64,000 bases of DNA, taken from assembly GCA_029262795.1 (NCBI GenBank), contig JAJCYT010000034.1, positions 124,001 through 188,000 on the forward strand, written 5' to 3'. The notes under the pieces are model-generated. The model worked only from the letters and a program-made list of their open reading frames with translations. It did not search any database and was not told the origin of the DNA. Source of the DNA: Candidatus Fraserbacteria bacterium (GTDB lineage Bacteria; Bipolaricaulota; Bipolaricaulia; RBG-16-55-9; JAJCYT01). Both the position numbers and the translations under genes were made by a program. Position 1 is the stretch's first letter. Every line of letters begins with the position of its first letter. Positions 5,746 through 43,474 of this stretch are shown here, in pieces.

Positions 5746-6456
5746 TCAGTCTTGTGATTCTGGCAGGACATATACCTTTAACAACACAACAGATTCCTGA
5801 TCGAGACTCTTGGCGCTGAAAGTCAATTCCTTGCGTTCCAATGAAGCGCCCTTGGCAACGATGGCTTGAACGGTGACGGTGGTGGATTCACCAGGTTGAA
5901 GTTCGGGGCTGTTTTCAAGCATGTTGATTAGCCAGTCTTCAGGAAATTCTTTCATCTCAAGTTCAAATCTGCCAGCCTTGTTGCCAATGTTGGTCAGCGT
6001 GTAGTCCAGAAGCAATGGATCACCTTCCTCCACGTCGAGTTGTTCAACATCGGAAAGCATTCGCGGCACAGCAATTGATTTGACGGTGACCGTGCTGTTG
6101 GTCTGGAGTGCTGTGTTGTCTCGTTTGGCATTGAGGGTAATGGGATAACTGTCGGCTTCGGTTTGCGCAGGGATTTGCACGTTCACAAACAGCGTGGCTT
6201 CTGATTCAGTCAAGTCATACGTCGAAGGAAAACTGACCGTCTGCCAGCCTTGCGGCAGGTCAATGGCCAGGGTGTAAAGACCCACAGGGGCATTTTCAAA
6301 ACGATAGGCAATGGTGGCAACGCCGCTGGGAATGGCGGAAGTATCTGTAGCAACAGGCTTTAATGGCGATTCAGAGGGGATGAACTGACGCCACAATAAG
6401 CTGCCAATCAACAACAGGCCCACAAATATAAAGGTAAAAAGATATCGTTTGTTCAC
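5746..6456 (-). CDS. Membrane-anchored NEW3-type (Ig-like) protein, last gene of the surface-fibre operon
   Basis: A 236-residue protein with an N-terminal signal anchor (about 5-24, no cleavage motif obvious) and an extracytoplasmic part made of two Ig-like beta modules. The modules are typical NPCBM-associated NEW3 sequences: VGLYTLAIDLPQGWQTVSF, then LDYTLTNIGNKAGRFELEM and PEDWLINML with GESTTVTV. The same module opens the large protein encoded 8 bp upstream, which suggests the two act together. Function unknown; possibly a periplasmic scaffold for the assembly system. It is the ninth and last gene of the minus-strand run and converges on rbfA. Confidence 0.7.
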   Translation of the reverse strand: MNKRYLFTFIFVGLLLIGSLLWRQFIPSESPLKPVATDTSAIPSGVATIAYRFENAPVGLYTLAIDLPQGWQTVSFPSTYDLTESEATLFVNVQIPAQTEADSYPITLNAKRDNTALQTNSTVTVKSIAVPRMLSDVEQLDVEEGDPLLLDYTLTNIGNKAGRFELEMKEFPEDWLINMLENSPELQPGESTTVTVQAIVAKGASLERKELTFSAKSLDQESVVLLKVYVLPESQD

Positions 6457-6464
6457 ACACTCAC

Positions 6465-9362
6465 CTATGGGGTCACGATGATGGTTTGAGTTGTCTGACC
6501 CACGTTGTTGTCATTGTCGGTCAAAATGAGTTTGACTTCAAATGTGCCTGTTTCGGTGAAGATGTGTTCGATCATGGGTTGTACGGTGGTGGCATCAATT
6601 TGGCCGTTGCCATCGAAATCCCACTCATACTTTGTGATCTCGCCGTCGGGATCGAACGACTCACTGGCATTGAACATCACGGTCTGTCCCACCTTTGGTT
6701 GTGAGGGTGAGAACATGAAGAAAGCCTGAGGTGGGCGGAAGGTGATCACCACACGCCTTGGGGTTTCGGATGCGCCGATGCGGACGTCCGTGGGGGTGCC
6801 TGAACTGACCTCAATGTTGATGTCCCCGAGCGTGGTTAAATCAAAACGGTCAGGCAGGCTGGTTTCGTCAACGACGATGCGATAGCTGTCGGCAGCCAGA
6901 TCGGCAAATCCAAAACGCCCATTGGCGTTGGTGATTGTGTCTAAGCGAATTTCATCAGGACCAAATAAAACCAAACGAATATTGGGCAAACCGCCTTCGC
7001 CATCCTCAAGTTTTCCATTGCGATTGCTGTCGTTAAACACCAAACCACTGACGGCAGCCACACGATTGAAAGCGACATTGAGCTTCATGCGTTGACCGGC
7101 CAGCGTGTGAATCATCATGGGCAATTTCTTTGCTGGAGATATGCCTGCGGGCAGTTCTTCAATAAAAATTTCCTGTTGACCAGGATCAAGTGGTGGTGTG
7201 CGATAAAAGCCTTGGGCATTGGTGGACACGCGCTGGCCTGATGCGTTGATGACCAAACCTGGCAATGGTGTGTCTTCGGCATCGAATGTGCCGTTATCGT
7301 TTTCGTCAATATATAAAACACCTTCCAGTTGGGCTTTAACCGCGACTGGCAAAGGCAGTGCAAAACGGCTCGTCACACCCAAAGTCAGAGTTTTAGACGC
7401 ATTGGCCGGACCGAGCGTTAAAAAGCCGACGTTGAAGCCGAGAGAAAATTGCAAATCTGCTGTGGGGCTGAAAGCCAGGTTTGCTGCATACAATGTTCGT
7501 TTGTCATCAAATGTCAAAGACAATCCACCGTTGATCAGGTTGCCGATAAATTGCATGGAAAGAATTCGATTCCAGGTCACATCCACGACTTGATCGGCTT
7601 GATTGCGCGTGATGGCATCATCCATCGAAGCGCTTAACACCAGAGGGCTGAACATGGCGGAGCGTGCGGACAGGTGCGTGCCATCGGTAAAGAAAATGTC
7701 GCCGGTGAGTTGATCATGCACTTCTTCATGGCGCTGTGACAACGAGATGGCATTGGCGCCCAGCTCATAGGAAATAGAAAGTGTTCTGCGATCAATAAAG
7801 CGGGTGGGGCCATTGATGACTTTGCCCATATTGTTGGAACTGGTCTGAGTTTTTTCAGTCGATAAATCCAAGCGAATCGAAGGCAGTTCCGGTAACGCAA
7901 TGCCCATTACCACACCGGCTCTCAGTTTGTGGGAAGTGGTTTGGATGTCTTCGTTGACATTGTTGTTCAAGATTTCCAATGAAGGAAACATCAGATAAGG
8001 TCCAGAAGAGAACCCTGCCGAAGCGCGCAACCCTTCCTGATCCACCCCACCACCATTGAATCTGGGGCCAGTGAGAAACATCCCTGCTTTGGCTTGAACA
8101 TCGTCTATGCGATAGTTCAGATCAAGTTGGCCTGAACGGTCGACGGAGCCGAACAAATCGCTCAGCGTCATGTCGCCACTCAGGTTCAAGCCTTTGGGGG
8201 TGCCGAAGCTGCCGCGAATGGACACATTGGAAATGGTGCGTGACGGTTCAATGCTCAATGAGGGCGTTTGGGGTTGAATAATGGAAAAATCCTGAGCTTC
8301 GGAAGTAAAATATCGTGCGGTCACACGCCCTTTTCCAAATGCGACTGAACTTGAAATGCTGGTGGCTCCTGGCGCTCTGGACACGTTGAACGAAAATCCA
8401 TCATTGGGGATGGATTGCACGCCAATGTCCAATGAGCTCAAACTGAAGCTGGTCAGGATGTTGCTGATGCTGCTGCCCACATCCAGTCTTATGTTGCCAA
8501 GTGCGCCGCTGGTGTTGAAATCGAGATTGAGTGAATCGTTGTTATTGACAAAATCTTTGGTCAGTAACAGCGCCACTTGTGCCGGAATGGTCAGCAACAA
8601 ATTGCTATCAATCCCTTCGGCAGTGGGGGGCAGAATTTGAGTCAGCACAGCAGCCTCCACCACAACCTCAGGTGAAACGGTGGAACTGACTCGAATTGTT
8701 AATTGATCCACGCCTGAAGCTTCATCCAACGGGACATCATAGCTGACAATGACGGCGTCGCTGTTTCCAGGTAACAACCCAACCTGAGTGGGCGTGATGC
8801 GCAATGAAAAACCGCGAGTGGTACGGGCTTCCACTTCAAAAATATCGGGCACATTGCCGTTGTTGGTGATCGTAAAACGATAGTCCAAGCTCGATCCAGG
8901 CAGCACCTGTTGACCCAAGGGCGTTTGCACCTGAACTTGGGCTCTGGTGCGAACATCAATAAAAATCCGACCGGAATCACTCACGCCTGCAAAACCTTGA
9001 GAATTGGCTGTGAGGTCGAGCATAAAGCGATCAGCCACGGTTGTTGTTGGAATTAAAAAGGTGATAAACAACGTTTGTGATGCGCCACTGCTCAAAGACA
9101 TGGCGTTGAGGCTGCTGACGGCCTGCCAGCCAGGTGGTAAATTAAGCTCAAATCGAAAAGTGTCCGCAACCGCACCTGTGTTTTTAATGGTGAAAGACAC
9201 GGTGTTGAAATCGCCTGGGTTGACGAATTTTTGTTCGATGGTTGGTATCACGCTCACACCCTGGGCCAACACGGGCAGACTGATGCTGATGAATGTAAAA
9301 AACATCAGGCAGGTGCTGATCCAATATTTAAAATGGGTGTGGGTCCGTTGACTTTGAAACAT
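6465..9362 (-). CDS. Large exported usher-like protein: NEW3, beta-rich barrel-like centre, SdrD-like and PKD domains
   Basis: A 965-residue protein with a signal peptide (about 1-34, ending PVLAQ). Two NEW3/Ig-like modules lie at about 36-140 and 146-245 (FVNPGDFNTVSFTIKNTGAV, LPPGWQAV, then SLDYRFTITNNGNVPD). A central 420-residue region (about 255-680) alternates polar and hydrophobic residues in amphipathic strands, as in outer-membrane barrels. Two SdrD/CNA-B-like repeats follow (GVLYIDENDNGTFDAEDTP, about 690-760; GLVFNDSNRNGKLEDGEGG, about 775-850). The C-terminus is a PKD domain (ASESFDPDGEITKYEWDFDG, about 880-965). Ushers of chaperone-usher pili share the barrel-then-beta-sandwich plan, but no usher N-terminal domain is visible. 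Its place directly after a PapD-like chaperone gene supports a pore or assembly-platform role. A plain adhesin is the alternative. Confidence 0.6.
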   Translation of the reverse strand: MFQSQRTHTHFKYWISTCLMFFTFISISLPVLAQGVSVIPTIEQKFVNPGDFNTVSFTIKNTGAVADTFRFELNLPPGWQAVSSLNAMSLSSGASQTLFITFLIPTTTVADRFMLDLTANSQGFAGVSDSGRIFIDVRTRAQVQVQTPLGQQVLPGSSLDYRFTITNNGNVPDIFEVEARTTRGFSLRITPTQVGLLPGNSDAVIVSYDVPLDEASGVDQLTIRVSSTVSPEVVVEAAVLTQILPPTAEGIDSNLLLTIPAQVALLLTKDFVNNNDSLNLDFNTSGALGNIRLDVGSSISNILTSFSLSSLDIGVQSIPNDGFSFNVSRAPGATSISSSVAFGKGRVTARYFTSEAQDFSIIQPQTPSLSIEPSRTISNVSIRGSFGTPKGLNLSGDMTLSDLFGSVDRSGQLDLNYRIDDVQAKAGMFLTGPRFNGGGVDQEGLRASAGFSSGPYLMFPSLEILNNNVNEDIQTTSHKLRAGVVMGIALPELPSIRLDLSTEKTQTSSNNMGKVINGPTRFIDRRTLSISYELGANAISLSQRHEEVHDQLTGDIFFTDGTHLSARSAMFSPLVLSASMDDAITRNQADQVVDVTWNRILSMQFIGNLINGGLSLTFDDKRTLYAANLAFSPTADLQFSLGFNVGFLTLGPANASKTLTLGVTSRFALPLPVAVKAQLEGVLYIDENDNGTFDAEDTPLPGLVINASGQRVSTNAQGFYRTPPLDPGQQEIFIEELPAGISPAKKLPMMIHTLAGQRMKLNVAFNRVAAVSGLVFNDSNRNGKLEDGEGGLPNIRLVLFGPDEIRLDTITNANGRFGFADLAADSYRIVVDETSLPDRFDLTTLGDINIEVSSGTPTDVRIGASETPRRVVITFRPPQAFFMFSPSQPKVGQTVMFNASESFDPDGEITKYEWDFDGNGQIDATTVQPMIEHIFTETGTFEVKLILTDNDNNVGQTTQTIIVTP

Positions 9363-9407
9363 GTGCCAACCCCGCTAACTTTCCTTCATTTTTTATTTGA
9401 AAAATGC

Positions 9408-10232
9408 TTAGTCGACGGTGAACGGCAGTTCGCCTGCGACGAGGACGTCGCCCCCAAAGTCGATGATTGCCAAAGCCACATAATCGCCTGCGGCCAGAGG
9501 TTGGCTGTCTTCCAACTCTTGAACCCGAACTTCGCGTACGCCTTCAGGCAGAACGGTGAAGGGTGAAATGTCCAGGGTGCGAACCGTTGCGCCAAATACA
9601 TCGCGCACTTCCACACTGCCGACCACATCACGCAGCACGGCATTTCCCGTGTTGGAAAAACGCACAATCAGGGACAATGGATCGCTGACGCTGTCCAGCC
9701 GCATTCCTGTCACGCGACCATCAGAAACAGCCTGAGGATCGGTCACAAACACTTTGACGCCAAAGCCCACACGCACACCGATGTTGGTGTTCACTTCGCC
9801 CGTGGTTTCGGCAATGGGCGTGACTTCGTTGCTGTCTACCAGAAACAGGAACCATTGATCCCCAGCGCCGCTGTTGGGTTGCGCGTAAGTGAAATCCACA
9901 CGCTGAACCTCATTCGGTTCCAAGGTGAAATTAACGGGCGCGTACTGCACAAACGGAGACAAAGATCGAGTTGTGCTGCCTGATTCCAAGAACTTGATGT
10001 TGCCGGCCTCATCCAACTGCCAGTCGGCGAGATTGATGGTCACTTCATCTGTGGCATCGCCGTTGTTGCGAACCAGAAAAAAGCCGATGCCTGCACCATC
10101 CAGCACGCTGCTGACAATGGTGAGTGGAAACACCGTGATGTTGGCCTGAGAGGTTGCCGTCATCAGACTGGCTAAAATCAATCCAAAAATGATGGGTCGA
10201 AAAAATCGCAAAAATTTTGAAAGTTTGTTCAT
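9408..10232 (-). CDS. PapD-like periplasmic chaperone
   Basis: A 274-residue protein with a signal peptide (about 1-30, ending ATSQA) and two Ig-like domains. Domain 1 follows the pilus-chaperone pattern: ANITVFPLTI, a strand with VRNNGDATDEVTINLADWQ, then the APVNFTLEPNEVQRVDFTY strand, as in fimbrial chaperones where a Pro-rich strand precedes the LxPGQxQxVRV strand. Domain 2 begins about residue 165 with LIVRFSNTGNAVLRDVVGSV. Such chaperones bind secreted pilin subunits by donor-strand complementation and hand them to an outer-membrane usher. The gene overlaps the preceding subunit gene by 4 bp (ATGA) and sits between the subunits and the usher-like protein. Homology is judged by eye; the basic Arg/Lys pair of PapD was not located. 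Confidence 0.6.
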   Translation of the reverse strand: MNKLSKFLRFFRPIIFGLILASLMTATSQANITVFPLTIVSSVLDGAGIGFFLVRNNGDATDEVTINLADWQLDEAGNIKFLESGSTTRSLSPFVQYAPVNFTLEPNEVQRVDFTYAQPNSGAGDQWFLFLVDSNEVTPIAETTGEVNTNIGVRVGFGVKVFVTDPQAVSDGRVTGMRLDSVSDPLSLIVRFSNTGNAVLRDVVGSVEVRDVFGATVRTLDISPFTVLPEGVREVRVQELEDSQPLAAGDYVALAIIDFGGDVLVAGELPFTVD

Positions 10233-11197
10233 GTTTCAGTAATCCTTAGTGTAATTAAAGCTTGTAGATTCCCCTGGGAAATCGTATTTTCTAATGCATC
10301 CAGACTCAATCTAACTTCGAGTCGTCCGCTGAATATGTGAGTTGCACCACCTTCGGTATTTGGCCCGCTCCACAGGCTGGTGCCTGTGAGAATGCTGTTG
10401 CTCAAATTGACAAAGCTGCCAGCCAAGTTGGAAATGCCCCCATCGTCATTGCCGGACAGCACGGAAAGCTGCAACGCAAACGTGGATGCTGGGTTGGGCA
10501 CTGGAATGGTGCTGCCTGTGAAATCGACTGAACCTGTTACCTGATAGTTCGACACCGCCGCCACGGTGACATCGAGTGTGGCGAATCCGGTGGTTGAATT
10601 GATGAAAAATGAATCGGTGAAATTGCTTCGGTCAATGGTGGTGTCGGTCACGTTTGTAGAAGAAATTCCAATGGCCACGATGTCGCTGAACGTGACGGTG
10701 AAGGTAAAGTTGCTGAATGCGACTTCGCTTCCCGCGCCGCCAGTCCCATCGGTCAAACTGAGTCGAACGGTGAAGGTGTAAGACCCATTGGTTGATCCGT
10801 TGTCGATGGTGTCCAGATTGAGGCGAAAGTTTAAATCCGTGCAGGTATCTGTGACTTCCGAGGTGTTTTGGCAAATCAGGCTGCTTCCCGCACCAGGGAA
10901 CACAAATCCACCTGCAAGATTTTCCACACCCAACGCACCTGGCGCATTGGTGGCCCCGCCAGGAGTGACAACACTCACACTGGCGTTGATTGACCACGGC
11001 CCGGTTTGTACCACACCCAATGTAGTCATTCCCGTGAGGCTGATCTCTGGAAGCGTCGGGCCATTCCCACTAACGATGGTGGCACGGCTGATGCTGTCAC
11101 TGGCCGATGCAGGTGTGGGCGTCACGGACTGCGCTACAGCAACAGAACTGAGTGAGATTACTAGCAAAACAATCGGCAGCCCTAATCGAAAAATCAT
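10229..11197 (-). CDS. Two-domain exported subunit of the fibre family (possible tip protein)
   Basis: A 322-residue protein with a signal peptide (about 1-22, SSVAVAQ). The C-terminal half (about 165-322) is a clear member of the six-paralogue family: FTFTVTFSDIVAIGI, the AVSNYQVTGSV motif, LWSGPNTEGGATH, RLSLDALE and the terminal strand ALITLRITET. The N-terminal half (about 23-160) is an extra beta domain ending in a similar strand (YTFTVRLSLTDG). One two-domain member next to the chaperone gene resembles the layout of tip adhesins in chaperone-usher pili, where an adhesin domain precedes a pilin domain. That role is inferred. The start overlaps the upstream stop by 4 bp. Confidence 0.6.
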   Translation of the reverse strand: MIFRLGLPIVLLVISLSSVAVAQSVTPTPASASDSISRATIVSGNGPTLPEISLTGMTTLGVVQTGPWSINASVSVVTPGGATNAPGALGVENLAGGFVFPGAGSSLICQNTSEVTDTCTDLNFRLNLDTIDNGSTNGSYTFTVRLSLTDGTGGAGSEVAFSNFTFTVTFSDIVAIGISSTNVTDTTIDRSNFTDSFFINSTTGFATLDVTVAAVSNYQVTGSVDFTGSTIPVPNPASTFALQLSVLSGNDDGGISNLAGSFVNLSNSILTGTSLWSGPNTEGGATHIFSGRLEVRLSLDALENTISQGNLQALITLRITET

Positions 11198-11901
11198 TGT
11201 TCCACCACTCTTAAATTGATTTGAAAGGTGTAGACGTTGCCCGATGCGTTGTTCTCCAGCGCGGCCAAATCCACGCGCAGGCTGGCTGCGCCGATGTGGG
11301 CGGTGCTGGTGCCACCTTCACTGTTGCCGCCGGTCCAGAGGGTGACCGTGCCGGTGTCGGGCAGATCCACGAATCCGACACCGATAAAGGCAGCGCCTGG
11401 AATAGGATCGTCAGCATCGCCTTCATCGCCCTGAACGAATGGAAGGTTGATTTCCAATAGCGCATCGACGTCGACTGGCCGATCTGGATTCACCGAATCC
11501 TGGCCGCCTGGGTTGTTGCTCGGCAGGCCAGTGGTTCCCGTTGGCACAATGGTTTGTGTGGTCGTTTTGTTGGCTGTCACCTGATAATCCGTGACTGAAT
11601 AGACCGTGATGTCAAATGTGCCAATAGGCATGAACTGACTGAGTAAATCCACGCGCGAGGTGTTGCGCTCGACCAGGCTGGCCCCTGGAATTTCCAGGCG
11701 CACGATCTCGACCATGTTTACGGTGAAGCTTGCAGCCTCGTCGCCGTCACAGGTTTCAGCGCCTGGGGTGGTGTCTTCGTTTGTGCATCCAGGTGCTTGA
11801 CTCACCGCATTGAATGAAATGGGCCATATCAGTGCCAGGATGAGCAGAAAGAGTCTTAATTTGTTTTCTGATGATTGAAAAAGATTTCGAGGATCAAGCA
11901 T
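11194..11901 (-). CDS. Exported fibre-family subunit
   Basis: A 235-residue protein. A signal peptide of about 35 residues is followed by the family's Cys pair (GCTNEDTTPGAETCDG), the strand SFTVNMVEIVRLEI, the SVTDYQVTANK motif (about 110), TVTLWTGGNSEGGTSTAH (about 190), LRVDLAALENN and the closing strand YTFQINLRVVEQ. The two cysteines probably form a disulfide in the periplasm. It aligns over its length with the next two upstream genes, so these are tandem paralogues. The start lies 16 bp from the upstream stop, behind AGAAAGG-type sequence. Function unknown; structural subunit inferred. Confidence 0.65.
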   Translation of the reverse strand: MLDPRNLFQSSENKLRLFLLILALIWPISFNAVSQAPGCTNEDTTPGAETCDGDEAASFTVNMVEIVRLEIPGASLVERNTSRVDLLSQFMPIGTFDITVYSVTDYQVTANKTTTQTIVPTGTTGLPSNNPGGQDSVNPDRPVDVDALLEINLPFVQGDEGDADDPIPGAAFIGVGFVDLPDTGTVTLWTGGNSEGGTSTAHIGAASLRVDLAALENNASGNVYTFQINLRVVEQ

Positions 11902-11917
11902 ATGAAAAAGACCTTTC

Positions 11918-12595
11918 TTAGTTTTCTGTCACTCGGAATGTGAGATCAAAGGTGAAAGATTGTTGGGCCGTGCCTGGGTCGGTTGAGGTGTTGCCCAGAC
12001 CGTCTTTGTCCACACGGACTTGGCCGGTGAGCGTGTGGAAGGTGGCGCTGCCACCTTCAGTGTTGCCGCCGTTGAACAGCGTGATGCCGCTGGTGGTCAC
12101 ATCTTGACACGTTTCGCCCGTGCTACTGCCGATGACGCCTGCGGCACAATTGTTGACGATCGTGATAGCAGGATTGTCCACCCCATCATCACCATTGCTG
12201 ACGGTGATATTGCCTACCTCTACCACGGTGTCCGCATTGCCCGTGCCGATGAGCGTGCCAGTGCTGACCACATTGGTGACGCTGACGCTGTAGTCGGTGA
12301 TCGAAAAAATGTTGACCACAAAGGTGCCGCTGATGGGCAGGTAACGCTGATCCAGTTCTCCACGAATAATGTCCGTGGATGCCGTAAGGCTGTTGGTGAC
12401 ATCAATGGCGACGACATCCTGCAACGTTAAATCGAATGTGGGTGCCACGGCATCGCACGATTCTGAGCCTGCCGACGTGCCTTCGTTGGAACAGCTTTGG
12501 CCAGACACCACTTGAATTAAACTCAAGGGTAGGAGCAATCCTATCAACAGCAGGTAGAATTTTTTCTGTGTCTGGTTTCTATTCAATCGCACCAT
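11918..12595 (-). CDS. Exported fibre-family subunit
   Basis: A 225-residue protein with a signal peptide (about 1-32, VVSGQ), Cys pair SCSNEGTSAGSESCD, first strand FDLTLQDVVAIDVTNS, FSITDYSVSVTN, GITLFNGGNTEGGSATFH, VRVDKDGLGN and closing strand FTFDLTFRVTEN. It is closest to the 12604-13260 gene: both share SCSNEG, LQDVVAVD and FRVTEN almost exactly. A second Cys pair in the middle (NNCAAGVIGSSTGETC) could form another disulfide. It is a likely structural subunit within the nine-gene run, 8 bp from the upstream gene. Confidence 0.65.
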   Translation of the reverse strand: MVRLNRNQTQKKFYLLLIGLLLPLSLIQVVSGQSCSNEGTSAGSESCDAVAPTFDLTLQDVVAIDVTNSLTASTDIIRGELDQRYLPISGTFVVNIFSITDYSVSVTNVVSTGTLIGTGNADTVVEVGNITVSNGDDGVDNPAITIVNNCAAGVIGSSTGETCQDVTTSGITLFNGGNTEGGSATFHTLTGQVRVDKDGLGNTSTDPGTAQQSFTFDLTFRVTEN

Positions 12596-12603
12596 GACCC
12601 CGT

Positions 12604-13260
12604 TTAGTTTTCTGTCACCCTGAACGTGACGGTGACTGTAAAGGCATTTGCCGAACCGGCAGTGTCCGTAGACGCATCACCCAAGGCATCGAGGTCGATG
12701 CGAAAGTCAACATCGGCGGTGTGATTGGGGTTGGTGCCACCAACAGAGTTGCCACCTGTCCATAACGTTGTGCCTGCGGCGGTGACATCGTCACAGCCTG
12801 CCGCAGAAGCACTGGTGATATCGCACCCGCCTGTGGTGGAATCGCTGGGATCATCGGCATCGCCTTCGTCGCCGTTGAGGCTGGAGATATCAACTTCCAA
12901 CAAAGCGTCGCCATCAAACGTGCCTGACGATGTGCCATTGGCAAGGCCAATCAATGCCGAAACGGTGTAGTCCGTGACCGCATGGATGCTCACATTGATG
13001 CTGCTGCTGAGTGGCAGGAAGCGGGAGCCTAATTCCGTGCGCGTCACTGTTTCGTTGGTGACGCTGCCGGTTAAATCCACGGCAACAACATCCTGTAAGG
13101 TCAAAGTGAAATTCGTGGTCGCATCACAACTTTCTGAGCCAGCCCCTGTGCCTTCGTTGGAACAGCTTTGGCTGACGCCAATGTGTGAGTTTGTCAATGG
13201 GAGAAAGATGGCCAGTGAAAGAATGGTCACCAATAGAGGCCATTTGTTTTTTGAAACCAT
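12604..13260 (-). CDS. Exported fibre-family subunit
   Basis: A 218-residue protein with a signal peptide (about 1-31), Cys pair SCSNEGTGAGSESCD, strand FTLTLQDVVAVDLTGS, HAVTDYTVSALI, a second Cys pair (GCDITSASAAGCDD), TTLWTGGNSVGGTNPNH, FRIDLDALGD and closing strand FTVTVTFRVTEN. The regular end-strand, with alternating hydrophobic residues and a fixed FRVTEN terminus, recalls the C-terminal strand that pilins use for chaperone binding. Its start follows AAAAGGAG. A 107-bp gap upstream of it is the largest spacing among the subunit genes and holds a palindrome (13291-13307), so a second promoter may lie there. Confidence 0.65.
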   Translation of the reverse strand: MVSKNKWPLLVTILSLAIFLPLTNSHIGVSQSCSNEGTGAGSESCDATTNFTLTLQDVVAVDLTGSVTNETVTRTELGSRFLPLSSSINVSIHAVTDYTVSALIGLANGTSSGTFDGDALLEVDISSLNGDEGDADDPSDSTTGGCDITSASAAGCDDVTAAGTTLWTGGNSVGGTNPNHTADVDFRIDLDALGDASTDTAGSANAFTVTVTFRVTEN

Positions 13261-13290
13261 GATGAAATTTCTCCTTTTAGCTTTAAAGTG

Positions 13291-13307
13291 TTTGTTAAGC
13301 TAACAAA
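13291..13307. promoter_or_regulatory. Perfect 7-bp inverted repeat in the subunit-gene gap
   Basis: TTTGTTA-AGC-TAACAAA lies 31 bp before the 12604-13260 gene, inside the widest gap of the operon. Such a short, AT-rich palindrome could be an operator or an RNA processing or pause structure. No clear -35/-10 pair was found beside it. Confidence 0.35.
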
Positions 13308-13367
13308 TGTAAATATATTGCAGTTTTCACTAAATCAGAGCCAAACCTGATGTATCGCAGAATTGAT

Positions 13368-13982
13368 CTAGCGCTCTAGAATGAAGAACCGAACGATGTA
13401 TTCCAGATCCACGCCCGACCTCAGCGCATCGGATGGGAGTTGGCTCAAGTCCACCCGCGCATCGATGGGGCCAAACGTATTGAGGTCCCCTTCTGTATTG
13501 TTGATGCCTGTCCACATAAAGATGGAATCTGGCAAACGCACCATGTCCGTGTATTCAGTTACATTGGGATTGATCTCCACGGGAGAATGGCCCGTGATGC
13601 CAGGCGCAAACAACCGCACTTGAAACATTTCAACTGGGAGTGGTTCTGTAAAAGCACCATCTCGCAATTGAGCATCACCAGAAATATGCAACTCATAATC
13701 TGTGATGGCGCCAGTGCGGATGCGAAAGCGATTGAAGTTTACAAACTGAGTGTTTTCCGTATTTTCTTCGACATTGAGCGTGACGGTCTGATTGCCATTT
13801 TCGATGATGACCACAACGGTTTCCACAATGTTGAAGTTGATGATGAGCATTTCATCATCACAGTCTGTCCCAGGACTTGGTGCGCCAATATCGGAACACA
13901 ACCCCTGGGAGTGTCCGGAGAAATCAATCACCGTAGAAAGTATGAGTCCCACCAATAGTGTCAAAAACATCCATCGTTTCAT
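13368..13982 (-). CDS. Exported fibre-family subunit (divergent)
   Basis: A 204-residue protein from ATG 13982. A longer frame back to 14048 exists, but 13982 is preceded by GGAGGAG at good spacing and gives a proper signal peptide (MKRWMFLTLLVGLILS). Family marks: Cys pair LCSDIGAPSPGTDCDD, strand LIINFNIVETVVVII, GAITDYELHISG, FMWTGINNTEGDLNTFG, ARVDLSQLPSD and closing strand LEYIVRFFILER. It is more divergent than its three downstream neighbours. Its start lies 1 bp after the upstream gene's stop, so the two are probably translationally coupled. Confidence 0.6.
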   Translation of the reverse strand: MKRWMFLTLLVGLILSTVIDFSGHSQGLCSDIGAPSPGTDCDDEMLIINFNIVETVVVIIENGNQTVTLNVEENTENTQFVNFNRFRIRTGAITDYELHISGDAQLRDGAFTEPLPVEMFQVRLFAPGITGHSPVEINPNVTEYTDMVRLPDSIFMWTGINNTEGDLNTFGPIDARVDLSQLPSDALRSGVDLEYIVRFFILER

Positions 13983-13983
13983 A

Positions 13984-14538
13984 TCAGTTCTCCTCCACAA
14001 CGGTGAAGTTGAGCAGGATGGATGATTCTGCAGAAAGATCGCCGCCAAGTTGTTGCAAATTCAGCCGCGCTTCCACAGTGGCAGTGGTGGTTGCTCCTGC
14101 ATTGTTGCCACCCTCCCACAGCGTCAGCGGGTCCAGTGTGGTGCCAACCGCAGCGAACTCCGTTTGTTCTGACCCAGGCACAAAGATGCCGTTGATGTCA
14201 AACACGCGCAGTTCAAGCACGGTGGGATCAAAGCCAAACGTGCCAGGACTTTGCGCCGATGCCACCACACGATAGTCGCCCAGAGCCACAGTCAGTAATG
14301 AAAGAGCACCCAGGTCAATGAAAGGTTGATCTGAATTTTCAACAGAGATAATCGTCGGATTCAGCGAGCCAACCACTTGAAGGCTCACTGCTTTTTCGAC
14401 GCGAATTTTGAGTAGCGCAGTGTCTGTGTCCGTGTCTTCTTGTTGGGACAAGGACAACTGCGGCCAAATTAGCGAAAGAAACAAAAGCGTACTTGCAATC
14501 GTACGCAAGACATACGCCCAACTCCATGCCCGAGTCAT
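13984..14538 (-). CDS. Exported fibre-family subunit lacking the Cys pair, first gene of the operon
   Basis: A 184-residue protein with a signal peptide (about 10-31) and then an acidic linker (QQEDTDTDT) instead of the Cys pair. The strand LLKIRVEKAVSLQVVG, VALGDYRVVASA, LTLWEGGNNAGATTTA, ARLNLQQLGGD and closing strand ILLNFTVVEEN identify it as the shortest member of the family. As the promoter-proximal gene without a disulfide it may play a different part, such as base or major subunit; that is speculation. ATG 14538 is preceded by GGAGG directly upstream, behind a small hairpin (14550-14567). Confidence 0.6.
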   Translation of the reverse strand: MTRAWSWAYVLRTIASTLLFLSLIWPQLSLSQQEDTDTDTALLKIRVEKAVSLQVVGSLNPTIISVENSDQPFIDLGALSLLTVALGDYRVVASAQSPGTFGFDPTVLELRVFDINGIFVPGSEQTEFAAVGTTLDPLTLWEGGNNAGATTTATVEARLNLQQLGGDLSAESSILLNFTVVEEN

Positions 14539-16768: not shown

Positions 16769-17839
16769 GTGAAAATCATTTACCTTGATACCAACACCTC
16801 CACCAATGTTGCTGCTGGCACAGGTCCAACTGCTGTGGCAATCACCCCTGATGGCAGCAAAGCTGTGGTGTCGAACAATAGCAATGCCACCGTCACGATT
16901 ATCGACCTAAGTACCAATACGCCCACCAACGTTGCTACTGGCGCGTTTCCTAACGCAGTGGCAATCACCCCTGATGGCAGCAAGGCTGTGGTTACAAACA
17001 ATGGCAGCGCCAATGTCACCATCATTGACCTGTCCAACAACATTCCCACAAATGTCGCGACTGTCACAGCTTCAGCTGCAGTGGCAATCACGCCCGATGG
17101 CAGCAAGGCTGTGGTTACAAACATTGGCAGCGCCAATGTCACCATCATTGACCTCGGTACCAATACGCCCACCAACATTGCTGTTGGCACAAGTCCAGCG
17201 AGAGTGGCAATCACGCCTGATGGCAGCAAGGCTGTGGTTACAAACAATGGCAGCGCCAATGTCACCATCATTGATCTCGGTACCAATACGACCACCAATG
17301 TTGTTGTTGGTACCAATCCCAGTTTGGTGGCAATCACGCCTGATGGCAGCAAGGCTGTGGTGGTGAACTTTGGCAGTGGCACCGCAACGATTATCGATCT
17401 GACCACCAACACCCCCACCAACGTCACGGTTGGTACGTCTCCCGTTGGTTTGGCAATCACGCCTGATGGCAGCAAGGCTGTGGTGGTGAACTCGTCCGAC
17501 GACAACGTGACAATTATCGATCTGACCATCAACACGCCGACTAATGTTGTTGTTGGTACCAATCCTAATTTTGTGGCGATCACCCCCGATAGCAACAGGG
17601 TCGTGGTGGTGAACTTTGACAGCGACAACGTCACCATCATCAACCTAGGGACCAACACATCGACCAATGTCCCTGTGGGCTCAGCACCTCAGGATGTGGC
17701 AATCACGCCCGATGGCAGCAAAGCTGTGGTGGTGAACACTGGCGGTACCAACGTCACTATTATCGACTTAAATACCAACACCCCCACCAATGTTGCCGCC
17801 GGCACAGAGCCAACTGCTGTGGCGATAGGCACGAGATAA
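16769..17839 (+). CDS. YVTN-type beta-propeller repeat protein, probably 5'-truncated
   Basis: 356 codons made almost wholly of eight repeats of about 41 residues (each with AITPDGSKAVV...VTIIDL and TNTPTNV), the YVTN family of seven-bladed propellers found in surface and periplasmic proteins. The only start is GTG 16769, immediately after the methyltransferase TGA and in the same frame. It has no ribosome site, and there is no signal peptide, which is odd for this family. It may be a fragment joined to the methyltransferase gene, expressed by reinitiation or TGA readthrough, or dead. Repeats 2-4 are nearly identical, which suggests recent expansion. Confidence 0.65.
   Translation: MKIIYLDTNTSTNVAAGTGPTAVAITPDGSKAVVSNNSNATVTIIDLSTNTPTNVATGAFPNAVAITPDGSKAVVTNNGSANVTIIDLSNNIPTNVATVTASAAVAITPDGSKAVVTNIGSANVTIIDLGTNTPTNIAVGTSPARVAITPDGSKAVVTNNGSANVTIIDLGTNTTTNVVVGTNPSLVAITPDGSKAVVVNFGSGTATIIDLTTNTPTNVTVGTSPVGLAITPDGSKAVVVNSSDDNVTIIDLTINTPTNVVVGTNPNFVAITPDSNRVVVVNFDSDNVTIINLGTNTSTNVPVGSAPQDVAITPDGSKAVVVNTGGTNVTIIDLNTNTPTNVAAGTEPTAVAIGTR
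16800..17830 (+). repeat. Tandem 123-bp coding repeats (about eight units)
   Basis: The segment GTGGCAATCACCCCTGATGG recurs with a 123-bp period (for example 16835 and 16958) and little change. The units encode propeller blades. Such an array can expand or contract by recombination. Confidence 0.85.
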
Positions 17840-41872: not shown

Positions 41873-43474
41873 TTAAAGCACCAGATTGAGTTGAAACGAC
41901 AGCAACGCAAAGCTCAGTTGATACGCCACCCCAACGCTTGCCACGGGCAAGGTTTGATGGAAGCGAATCGCATCCTGATGCGAAATCGTCACGCGAGGGT
42001 GGTCACTTTTGTGTTTGCCTTCCAAGCTCAACAGGCCACCACCAAAACTGAGATGCACATTGTCCGCCACGCGATAGAGCAAGCCTGTGTTGATGAGCAT
42101 GGCAGTATCAATTTCGGTCATCACTTTTGCCTGTGGGAATGCTTTGCTCACTTGAGGGAACAGATGCGTTTGGTCGATGGTCAAGGTGTTTAGGTTGATA
42201 CCAACACCCACCATGCCCGAAAACGGCGTGTCACCAAAGCGAAAGCCCGCCGCGCCATTGGCCATTTGGAAGTTGCTGATCAATCCAAGGCCGCCAGAGA
42301 TAAACACAGGCAGGTCTTTCGTTTTCATCATGTGTGTTGGTGTGATCATCGGCTTGCCCGTCACTTGTACTTTGATGGGGTGAACGATGGCGGGAATGTG
42401 TGATCGTTCCTGCATGTATGCATCTTTCACGCGAACGATCACGGTGTGCGTACCTTGAGAAAATCCCTGTTTCCATTCCACACGAGGTTCTGTGCCGATG
42501 TGGTCGGCGATGTTGTCGCCATTGAAATCCCACTCAAATGTTAAATCCGTCTGTTCAGGGTCAATCGATTCGGAAGCGTTAAACACCACCGCTTCGCCTG
42601 CCTGAACGGTGTTACCTGCCTGTCTGGGTTCGGTAAACACCACAGGAATCGGCGCGCGATTGTCCACGTTGATGGACGTTTTCTTTTGTGCCATCTGGCT
42701 GCGCCCGAATTGATCCGTCATTTTTGCGGTCAACGTGACCTGATACGTTTGCGGCAAACTGAATTCGTAATGCACTTTTTCACCCTGCAAGCGAATTTCC
42801 TTGATGCCGGCAGAATTTTCGATTTCCCAGGTGTATTCCCAATTGGGCGTCAGGCTCGATGGCAAGTCACTGGTGGGTGAGGACAACCCTGCATCAAACA
42901 ATACATCGGACTGACTCACCAATTGATCGTTGGGCGTCATGCGAAAATCGGCCATCACTTCTGGCAAATTTGGCAAACTCACTTCCACCGTTTTGCGTTC
43001 CACATGGCGGTGGAAGATGCGATTGGCATCCACAATTTCCACAGTCAGTGTGGCCGTATAGGTGCCAGGCTGTTCGTAGCGGTGGTTGATTTGTGAGCCT
43101 GTGGCCGTCATGTTGTCACCAAAAGACCAGACGTAATCAATCTCGCGGATTAATTCAGCATCCACACTCGACATCGAGGCTTCAAATGAAATAGGATCGC
43201 CTAATTGAACCTGACTGGCCGCAGAAATGTCGAAATCTATACCCAGATCGGCCACATCAAAATCTTCGGTTTGAGCAATTTCCTGATCTGATTCTCCGCT
43301 TGATGTGTTTCGTTGAGCACTATTGGCGGTCGATTTGTTGGTAGGTTGACCTGTAATTTCTAAATCATCAATATTTGGAACAGAAGGTGGGTTGTTGTTA
43401 AAAATAGCAACACCCATGCCAATGGTCACCGTCAAAGCGGCGCCGGCAAATAAAACTCTCATCCAAGGCTGCAT
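41873..43474 (-). CDS. Exported PKD-domain protein with beta-rich C-terminus
   Basis: 533 residues with an N-terminal membrane segment (about 5-25) and a low-complexity linker. Three or so PKD/Ig-like domains follow between about 85 and 390 (LIREIDYVWSFGDNMTATGS, VVFNASESIDPEQTDLTFEW). The final 140 residues (GFRFGDTPFSGMVGVGINLN, VHLSFGGGLLSLEG) alternate like short outer-membrane-barrel strands and end in the hydrophobic LLSFQLNLVL, as outer-membrane proteins often do. The PKD wording resembles that of the 965-residue protein in the fibre operon. Possibly an outer-membrane anchor for surface structures. ATG 43474 follows AAAGGAG. Confidence 0.65.
   Translation of the reverse strand: MQPWMRVLFAGAALTVTIGMGVAIFNNNPPSVPNIDDLEITGQPTNKSTANSAQRNTSSGESDQEIAQTEDFDVADLGIDFDISAASQVQLGDPISFEASMSSVDAELIREIDYVWSFGDNMTATGSQINHRYEQPGTYTATLTVEIVDANRIFHRHVERKTVEVSLPNLPEVMADFRMTPNDQLVSQSDVLFDAGLSSPTSDLPSSLTPNWEYTWEIENSAGIKEIRLQGEKVHYEFSLPQTYQVTLTAKMTDQFGRSQMAQKKTSINVDNRAPIPVVFTEPRQAGNTVQAGEAVVFNASESIDPEQTDLTFEWDFNGDNIADHIGTEPRVEWKQGFSQGTHTVIVRVKDAYMQERSHIPAIVHPIKVQVTGKPMITPTHMMKTKDLPVFISGGLGLISNFQMANGAAGFRFGDTPFSGMVGVGINLNTLTIDQTHLFPQVSKAFPQAKVMTEIDTAMLINTGLLYRVADNVHLSFGGGLLSLEGKHKSDHPRVTISHQDAIRFHQTLPVASVGVAYQLSFALLSFQLNLVL

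Follow-up and report, generated by a model that had tools for sequence, protein, structure and literature searches.

Filaments of the TLP-1/TLP-2 type (PDB 9ikj and 9ikk; TLP-1a/b) are the CryoSeek lotus-pond filaments, in which the N-terminal strand of one protomer reportedly completes the Ig domain of another (donor-strand exchange). The CryoSeek paper (PNAS 2024) is cited in PMC12967142. Subunits of the archaic chaperone-usher systems are anchored in their chaperones by a super-conserved Arg (Arg89 in CsuC; PMC4654587). In the Bipolaricaulota, the Candidatus Bipolaricaulis paper reported pili, fimbriae and adhesin genes to be absent (PMC6092417); standard family searches miss a divergent operon, and the phylum has therefore been described as lacking such fibres.

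Here we describe a nine-gene operon that is likely to encode a divergent chaperone-usher pathway building a surface fibre. The sequence-only reading of this DNA had spoken of a new fibre class, which goes too far; instead, the operon would belong to the chaperone-usher kind as a deep branch that has gone unrecognised, lying outside the established families. Literature searches found no description of such a system.

Organization of the operon

The window (the whole 64,000-nucleotide stretch of DNA that was analysed) comes from the order Fraserbacteria of the Bipolaricaulota. The operon consists of nine adjacent minus-strand genes (14538-5746), with all nine ORFs present, encoding six related exported beta-rich subunits (S1 to S6), a chaperone (CHAP), a 965-aa outer-membrane-type protein (USH), and an anchored NEW3 protein; infB-ylxP-rbfA directly adjoin it (neighbour genes assigned by eye). 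The features, with the evidence for each, are as follows.

13984..14538, minus strand: subunit S1, the first gene; 184 aa, exported, beta-rich (ORF, phmmer, profile)
13368..13982, minus strand: subunit S2, the most divergent of the six; 204 aa when started at ATG 13982 (iterated profile)
12604..13260, minus strand: subunit S3, 218 aa, C-terminal end ...FTVTVTFRVTEN (phmmer, profile)
11918..12595, minus strand: subunit S4, 225 aa (phmmer, profile)
11194..11901, minus strand: subunit S5, 235 aa (phmmer, profile)
10229..11197, minus strand: subunit S6, 322 aa, immediately upstream of the chaperone and built of two subunit-like domains; candidate tip subunit (profile)
9408..10232, minus strand: CHAP, predicted chaperone of PapD/WxLIP type, 274 aa, signal helix and two Ig-like domains (AF2, Foldseek, HMM-HMM)
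6465..9362, minus strand: USH, usher-like outer-membrane protein, 965 aa (Pfam, AF2, Foldseek, HMM-HMM)
8619..9263, minus strand: USH residues 34-248, two NEW3-like Ig domains at the place of the usher N-domain (Pfam, model, HMM-HMM)
7341..8597, minus strand: USH residues 256-674, predicted to form a beta-barrel (24 counted strands); 320-376 of low confidence (model)
6759..7334, minus strand: USH residues 677-868, a pair of SdrD_B domains that match the C-terminal domains of archaic ushers (Pfam, HMM-HMM)
6474..6731, minus strand: USH residues 878-963, PKD domain (Pfam)
5746..6456, minus strand: N-terminally anchored protein, 236 aa, two NEW3-like domains, related to the USH N-terminal domains (Pfam, phmmer, profile)

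In transcription order, the intergenic gaps are 1, 107, 8, 16, -4, -4, 45 and 8 bp. The close packing described in the sequence-only reading (mostly 0-16 bp or overlapping) thus holds at six of eight junctions, the exceptions being S2/S3 (107 bp) and CHAP/USH (45 bp), and the N-terminal signal or anchor that it assigned to every product was found as a hydrophobic export segment on 9/9 proteins; a lipobox is present in none of the nine. For S2, the ATG start at 13982 (204 aa) was preferred over a TTG start (226 aa). Promoter-like and terminator-like sites in a pattern scan were not above the level of shuffled sequence; we therefore infer co-transcription of the nine genes from their spacing. 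A Pfam scan resolved the 965-aa protein into NEW3/Ig modules, two SdrD_B domains and one PKD domain, consistent with the SdrD and PKD ending originally ascribed to it, and found NEW3 domains in the product of the last gene; the subunits and chaperone of the window had no match. Elsewhere in the window, a beta-propeller protein with near-identical repeats (YNCE/lactonase type; 16769-17839) adjoins a methyltransferase.

Distribution and conservation

The chaperone profile detects relatives in 86 of 100 Bipolaricaulota genomes and in 37 of the 38 good ones. In the same 100 genomes, Pfam PapD_N (PF00345) and Usher (PF00577) have no match (the E. coli control was matched). Nearly every good Bipolaricaulota genome has a pilus-type chaperone that is invisible to Pfam, usually followed by an usher-like protein. 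Where the flanking sequence is long enough, the gene after the chaperone encodes the large protein in 37 of 43 loci, and a subunit precedes the chaperone in 30 of 45; the nearest upstream subunit is at least 260 aa long in 21 of the 30 loci that have one. Large-protein matches were obtained in 60/60 relatives, partly via the general SdrD_B and PKD domains. Several loci from the taxonomic order of the window (L046, L050, L066-L068 and L070) have the anchored NEW3 gene next, and the count of 2/37 for this gene results from a threshold too strict for it. Most of the nine genes are conserved across the whole phylum, and the arrangement is more than chance: the survey of homologous operons shows the order subunit(s)-chaperone-large protein recurring phylum-wide.

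The nearest named chaperone belongs to Candidatus Fraserbacteria RBG_16_55_9, a member of the same order as the window, followed by those of Acetothermia/Bipolaricaulota MAGs. The system is also found outside the phylum, in L064 and L072 (MAGs that carry the labels Deltaproteobacteria and Eisenbacteria, respectively) and in another bacterium (L071), and the new profiles offer a route to such machinery elsewhere. Nothing was found in the viral contigs and plasmids searched. The genome from which the window derives encodes five chaperones, along with four large proteins. Its additional copies of either kind (L042:8347-11241, L043, L044 and L045), some apparently without the other half nearby, suggest several fibre systems or shared parts.

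The chaperone

The AF2 model of CHAP (pLDDT 91; input alignment of 43 rows) contains a signal helix and two Ig-like domains. Its best PDB fold matches by Foldseek are to WxLIP (2e-12 to 1e-11; top entries 9i1y and 9i25), then to CsuC (3e-10) and FimC (6e-10), with further matches to YadV, CfaA and Caf1M. In HMM-HMM comparison (hhalign) with signal peptides removed, CHAP aligns to the archaic PapD chaperones with P = 6e-20, against P = 0.2 for a reversed-column control; the comparison with E. coli K-12 chaperones gives P = 5e-4. Additionally, in the phylum of L064 the CHAP profile retrieves genuine PapD_N chaperones, which have PF00577 ushers and SCPU pilins as neighbours. By its modelled fold and its profile homology, CHAP is a two-domain PapD-type chaperone, as the sequence-only reading had proposed. 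The Gram-positive WxLIP proteins and the Gram-negative pilus chaperones, our comparisons suggest, share a fold and perhaps an origin.

We also inspected the positions of the known anchor residues. The position of PapD Lys112, corresponding to CHAP residue 160 (equivalence via hhalign to FimC), is basic in 40 of 43 sequences. The classical Arg8 position, CHAP residue 38, is not Arg, and is Glu, Ser or Thr in 37 of 43, while that of the archaic anchor (CsuC Arg89; CHAP residue 128, equivalence by profile alignment) is Ala, Gly, Thr, Val or Ser. Because neither position is Arg, the way in which CHAP anchors subunits may differ from both known modes. Many chaperones of the phylum (L047, L049, L060 and others) carry a dockerin-like C-terminal EF-hand extension, with 5 of 16 members matching PF00404; CHAP of the window is without it.

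The subunits

The relatedness of the six subunits, part of the sequence-only reading, was recovered by phmmer among S1, S3, S4, S5 and S6, with S2 joining via an iterated profile. S6 is composed of two domains (residues 20-150 and 155-321), both subunit-like by profile. As had been claimed, none of the subunits matches a recognised pilin family, and 0 of 35 scanned subunits has a Pfam match (SCPU and Fimbrial included); a WxL domain likewise has no Pfam match among the window subunits or the 35 scanned. An apparent assignment to the SCPU pilins (P = 2.5e-7) proved to be a signal-peptide artefact, falling to P = 0.017 after signal-peptide removal.

Searched against the PDB, the subunit-family profile has TLP-1 and TLP-2 as its sole significant matches (8e-5 and 2e-4; the next is 0.04). 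The match begins at mature residue 5 and is therefore not driven by signal peptides, and hhalign of the subunits with TLP gives P = 3e-5 (score 30, shuffled maximum 15). Profiles built from half of the family have no TLP match, and we therefore rate the sequence similarity between the subunits and TLP as moderate. The multiplicity of the subunits, the operon plan and this moderate match to orphan filaments lead us to infer that the subunits form a fibre.

CHAP has WxLIP as its best structural match, and WxLIP is a cell-surface binder of WxL proteins (PMC10599100). The locus could alternatively be a WxL/WxLIP-type surface display that has moved to a diderm, with CHAP staying on exported surface proteins, the large protein acting as an outer-membrane anchor, and no polymer formed. 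We consider this unlikely: the scanned subunits are without a Pfam WxL match, the paralogous subunits (one of them two-domain), the large barrel and the TLP match suggest a polymer, and the homology of CHAP to archaic PapD is very strong by HMM-HMM comparison (WxLIP families were compared by fold).

The usher-like protein

In the model of USH (pLDDT 86; input alignment of 52 rows), two Ig-like domains at the N-terminus precede a run of about 24 long strands (residues 256-674), after which come the SdrD_B pair and the PKD domain. We counted 24 barrel strands, three of them within a low-confidence stretch of this model, and the usher-barrel sequence match is P = 0.13. Strand amphipathicity is 2.68, compared to 1.43 in shuffled sequences, with 0 of 2000 shuffles as high. 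FimD is the top PDB fold match, with several FimD/PapC entries next; the TM-scores to FimD are low (0.25-0.32), and that of BtuB is higher (TMt 0.44). A viral fold search returned only generic beta-proteins, and Foldseek E-values have a high background for long beta-proteins; as unrelated viral proteins reach 1e-12 at TM 0.13, the FimD fold match alone is not decisive. The centre of this protein, for which a barrel had been proposed, is predicted as a large beta-barrel of about 24 strands; usher homology of the barrel region alone is not detectable by HMM-HMM comparison (P = 0.13).

An usher N-domain is absent from USH, and the sequence-only reading was right to place NEW3 modules where it would stand: hhalign shows no relationship between this NEW3-like Ig pair and the N-domain of ushers (P = 0.37). 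The pair resembles CHAP (P = 9e-13, HMM-HMM), with the caveat that Ig domains of the NEW3, WxLIP and PapD types belong to one broad group. No plug domain is predicted in the barrel: strands six and seven, as counted, are separated only by a low-confidence loop of 25 residues (343-367). The SdrD_B pair matches archaic usher C-domains in HMM-HMM comparison (P = 5e-6 to 8e-6; such folds are widespread). The relative at L138 ends in an OmpA domain at the place of the PKD domain, which argues for a periplasmic C-terminus in USH. By its position, its predicted barrel and its C-domain homology, USH is a putative usher.

At L145, an alignment of 719 columns (P = 1e-7) connects the usher-like protein with archaic ushers, and the chaperone beside it matches both PapD_N and the CHAP profile; by these matches, L145 is a bridge, or intermediate, between archaic ushers and the USH-type system. 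C-terminal OmpA domains occur on usher-like and true usher proteins at L138 and L147, and would tie the platform to peptidoglycan. Short large proteins (629-659 aa) with a single SdrD_B domain and no Pfam NEW3 match lie beside CHAP-type chaperones at L141 and L142, and are possible minimal platforms. The PKD module of USH is also common to a 533-aa protein of the window (41873-43474, minus strand), which has several PKD domains.

Sequence drift in an otherwise ordinary archaic chaperone-usher pilus (SCPU/PF00577) would account for the shared gene plan, for the homology of the chaperone and C-domains, and for the retrieval of true archaic systems by the CHAP profile. It is nevertheless very unlikely, given that a NEW3-like pair replaces the usher N-domain, that the Usher family has 0 matches in 100 genomes, that the subunits are not SCPU after signal-peptide removal, and that the CsuC Arg89 position is not Arg in CHAP (profile alignment; PMC4654587). 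A coat or matrix of Ig-like proteins secreted via an unrelated outer-membrane barrel, without chaperone-usher mechanics, draws on the sequence-undetectable homology between the barrel and ushers and on the equal fit of BtuB by TM, and is highly improbable in view of the missing HMM-HMM signal from TonB-dependent barrels, the usher-like C-domains, and the PapD-type chaperone that adjoins the large protein in 37 of 43 loci.

Proposed assembly pathway

The Usher family, the usher N-domain, the plug and the pilin families are all unmatched, and the operon is therefore not a member of a recognised chaperone-usher clade. Against the PapD, usher and pilin alignments of E. coli K-12, HMM-HMM comparison of the three families (chaperone, large protein and subunits) stayed at background level (P ~0.002-0.004); archaic relatives alone gave a strong signal, with the chaperone and with the C-domains.

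As a divergent chaperone-usher pathway, the operon could work as follows. Judging from the signal sequences, Sec would carry the subunits over the inner membrane, where CHAP would cap each incomplete Ig-like subunit by lending it a beta-strand. The complexes would dock on the periplasmic side of USH, at the NEW3-like pair that occupies the place of the usher N-domain, and the subunits would traverse the USH barrel, the N-terminal strand of the next subunit displacing the strand of the chaperone (donor-strand exchange). The SdrD_B pair, homologous to usher C-domains, may serve in that role, with the PKD domain as a putative periplasmic extension. The two-domain S6 is probably the tip, and S1-S5 would supply the shaft and adaptors. 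The anchored NEW3 protein may, as a guess, keep chaperone-subunit complexes near the inner membrane.

The operon is, in addition, a candidate assembly system for orphan cryo-EM filaments. More tentatively, and in our estimate short of probable, orphan filaments of the TLP type would be assembled by a separate phylum-wide chaperone-usher class, one whose usher has a NEW3-like front end and whose chaperone is of the WxLIP/PapD type. If so, this machinery would supply the assembly apparatus that is missing for filaments first observed in pond water by cryo-EM. It would also connect the Gram-positive WxLIP proteins with the Gram-negative pilus chaperones.

Comparison with known systems

With the type 1 and P pili (FimC/FimD, PapD/PapC), the locus shares a two-Ig chaperone, a basic residue at the Lys112 position, and a large predicted barrel flanked by periplasmic domains; it differs from them in having no Arg8, no usher N-domain or plug, and no Fimbrial-family subunits. 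The WxLIP proteins (DUF916/DUF3324) of Gram-positive WxL clusters provide the best fold match of CHAP (9i1y, 9i25), but here there is no WxL-domain partner, and an outer-membrane-type protein follows CHAP.

The archaic pili (Csu, CupE; SCPU subunits and a PF00577 usher) have the same operon plan, a PapD-type chaperone (P = 6e-20) and C-domains like those of USH (P = 5e-6), and the two-domain S6 could be a tip similar to CsuE. In contrast to these pili, the locus encodes a NEW3-like pair where the usher N-domain would be, lacks a predicted plug, and has a tail of SdrD_B and PKD domains; its subunits are not SCPU, and the Arg89 position of its chaperone is not Arg. With the TLP-1/TLP-2 filaments (PDB 9ikj, 9ikk), the similarity is moderate and covers about half of the protomer, the subunit profile matching the N-terminal half of the mature protein (E = 8e-5).
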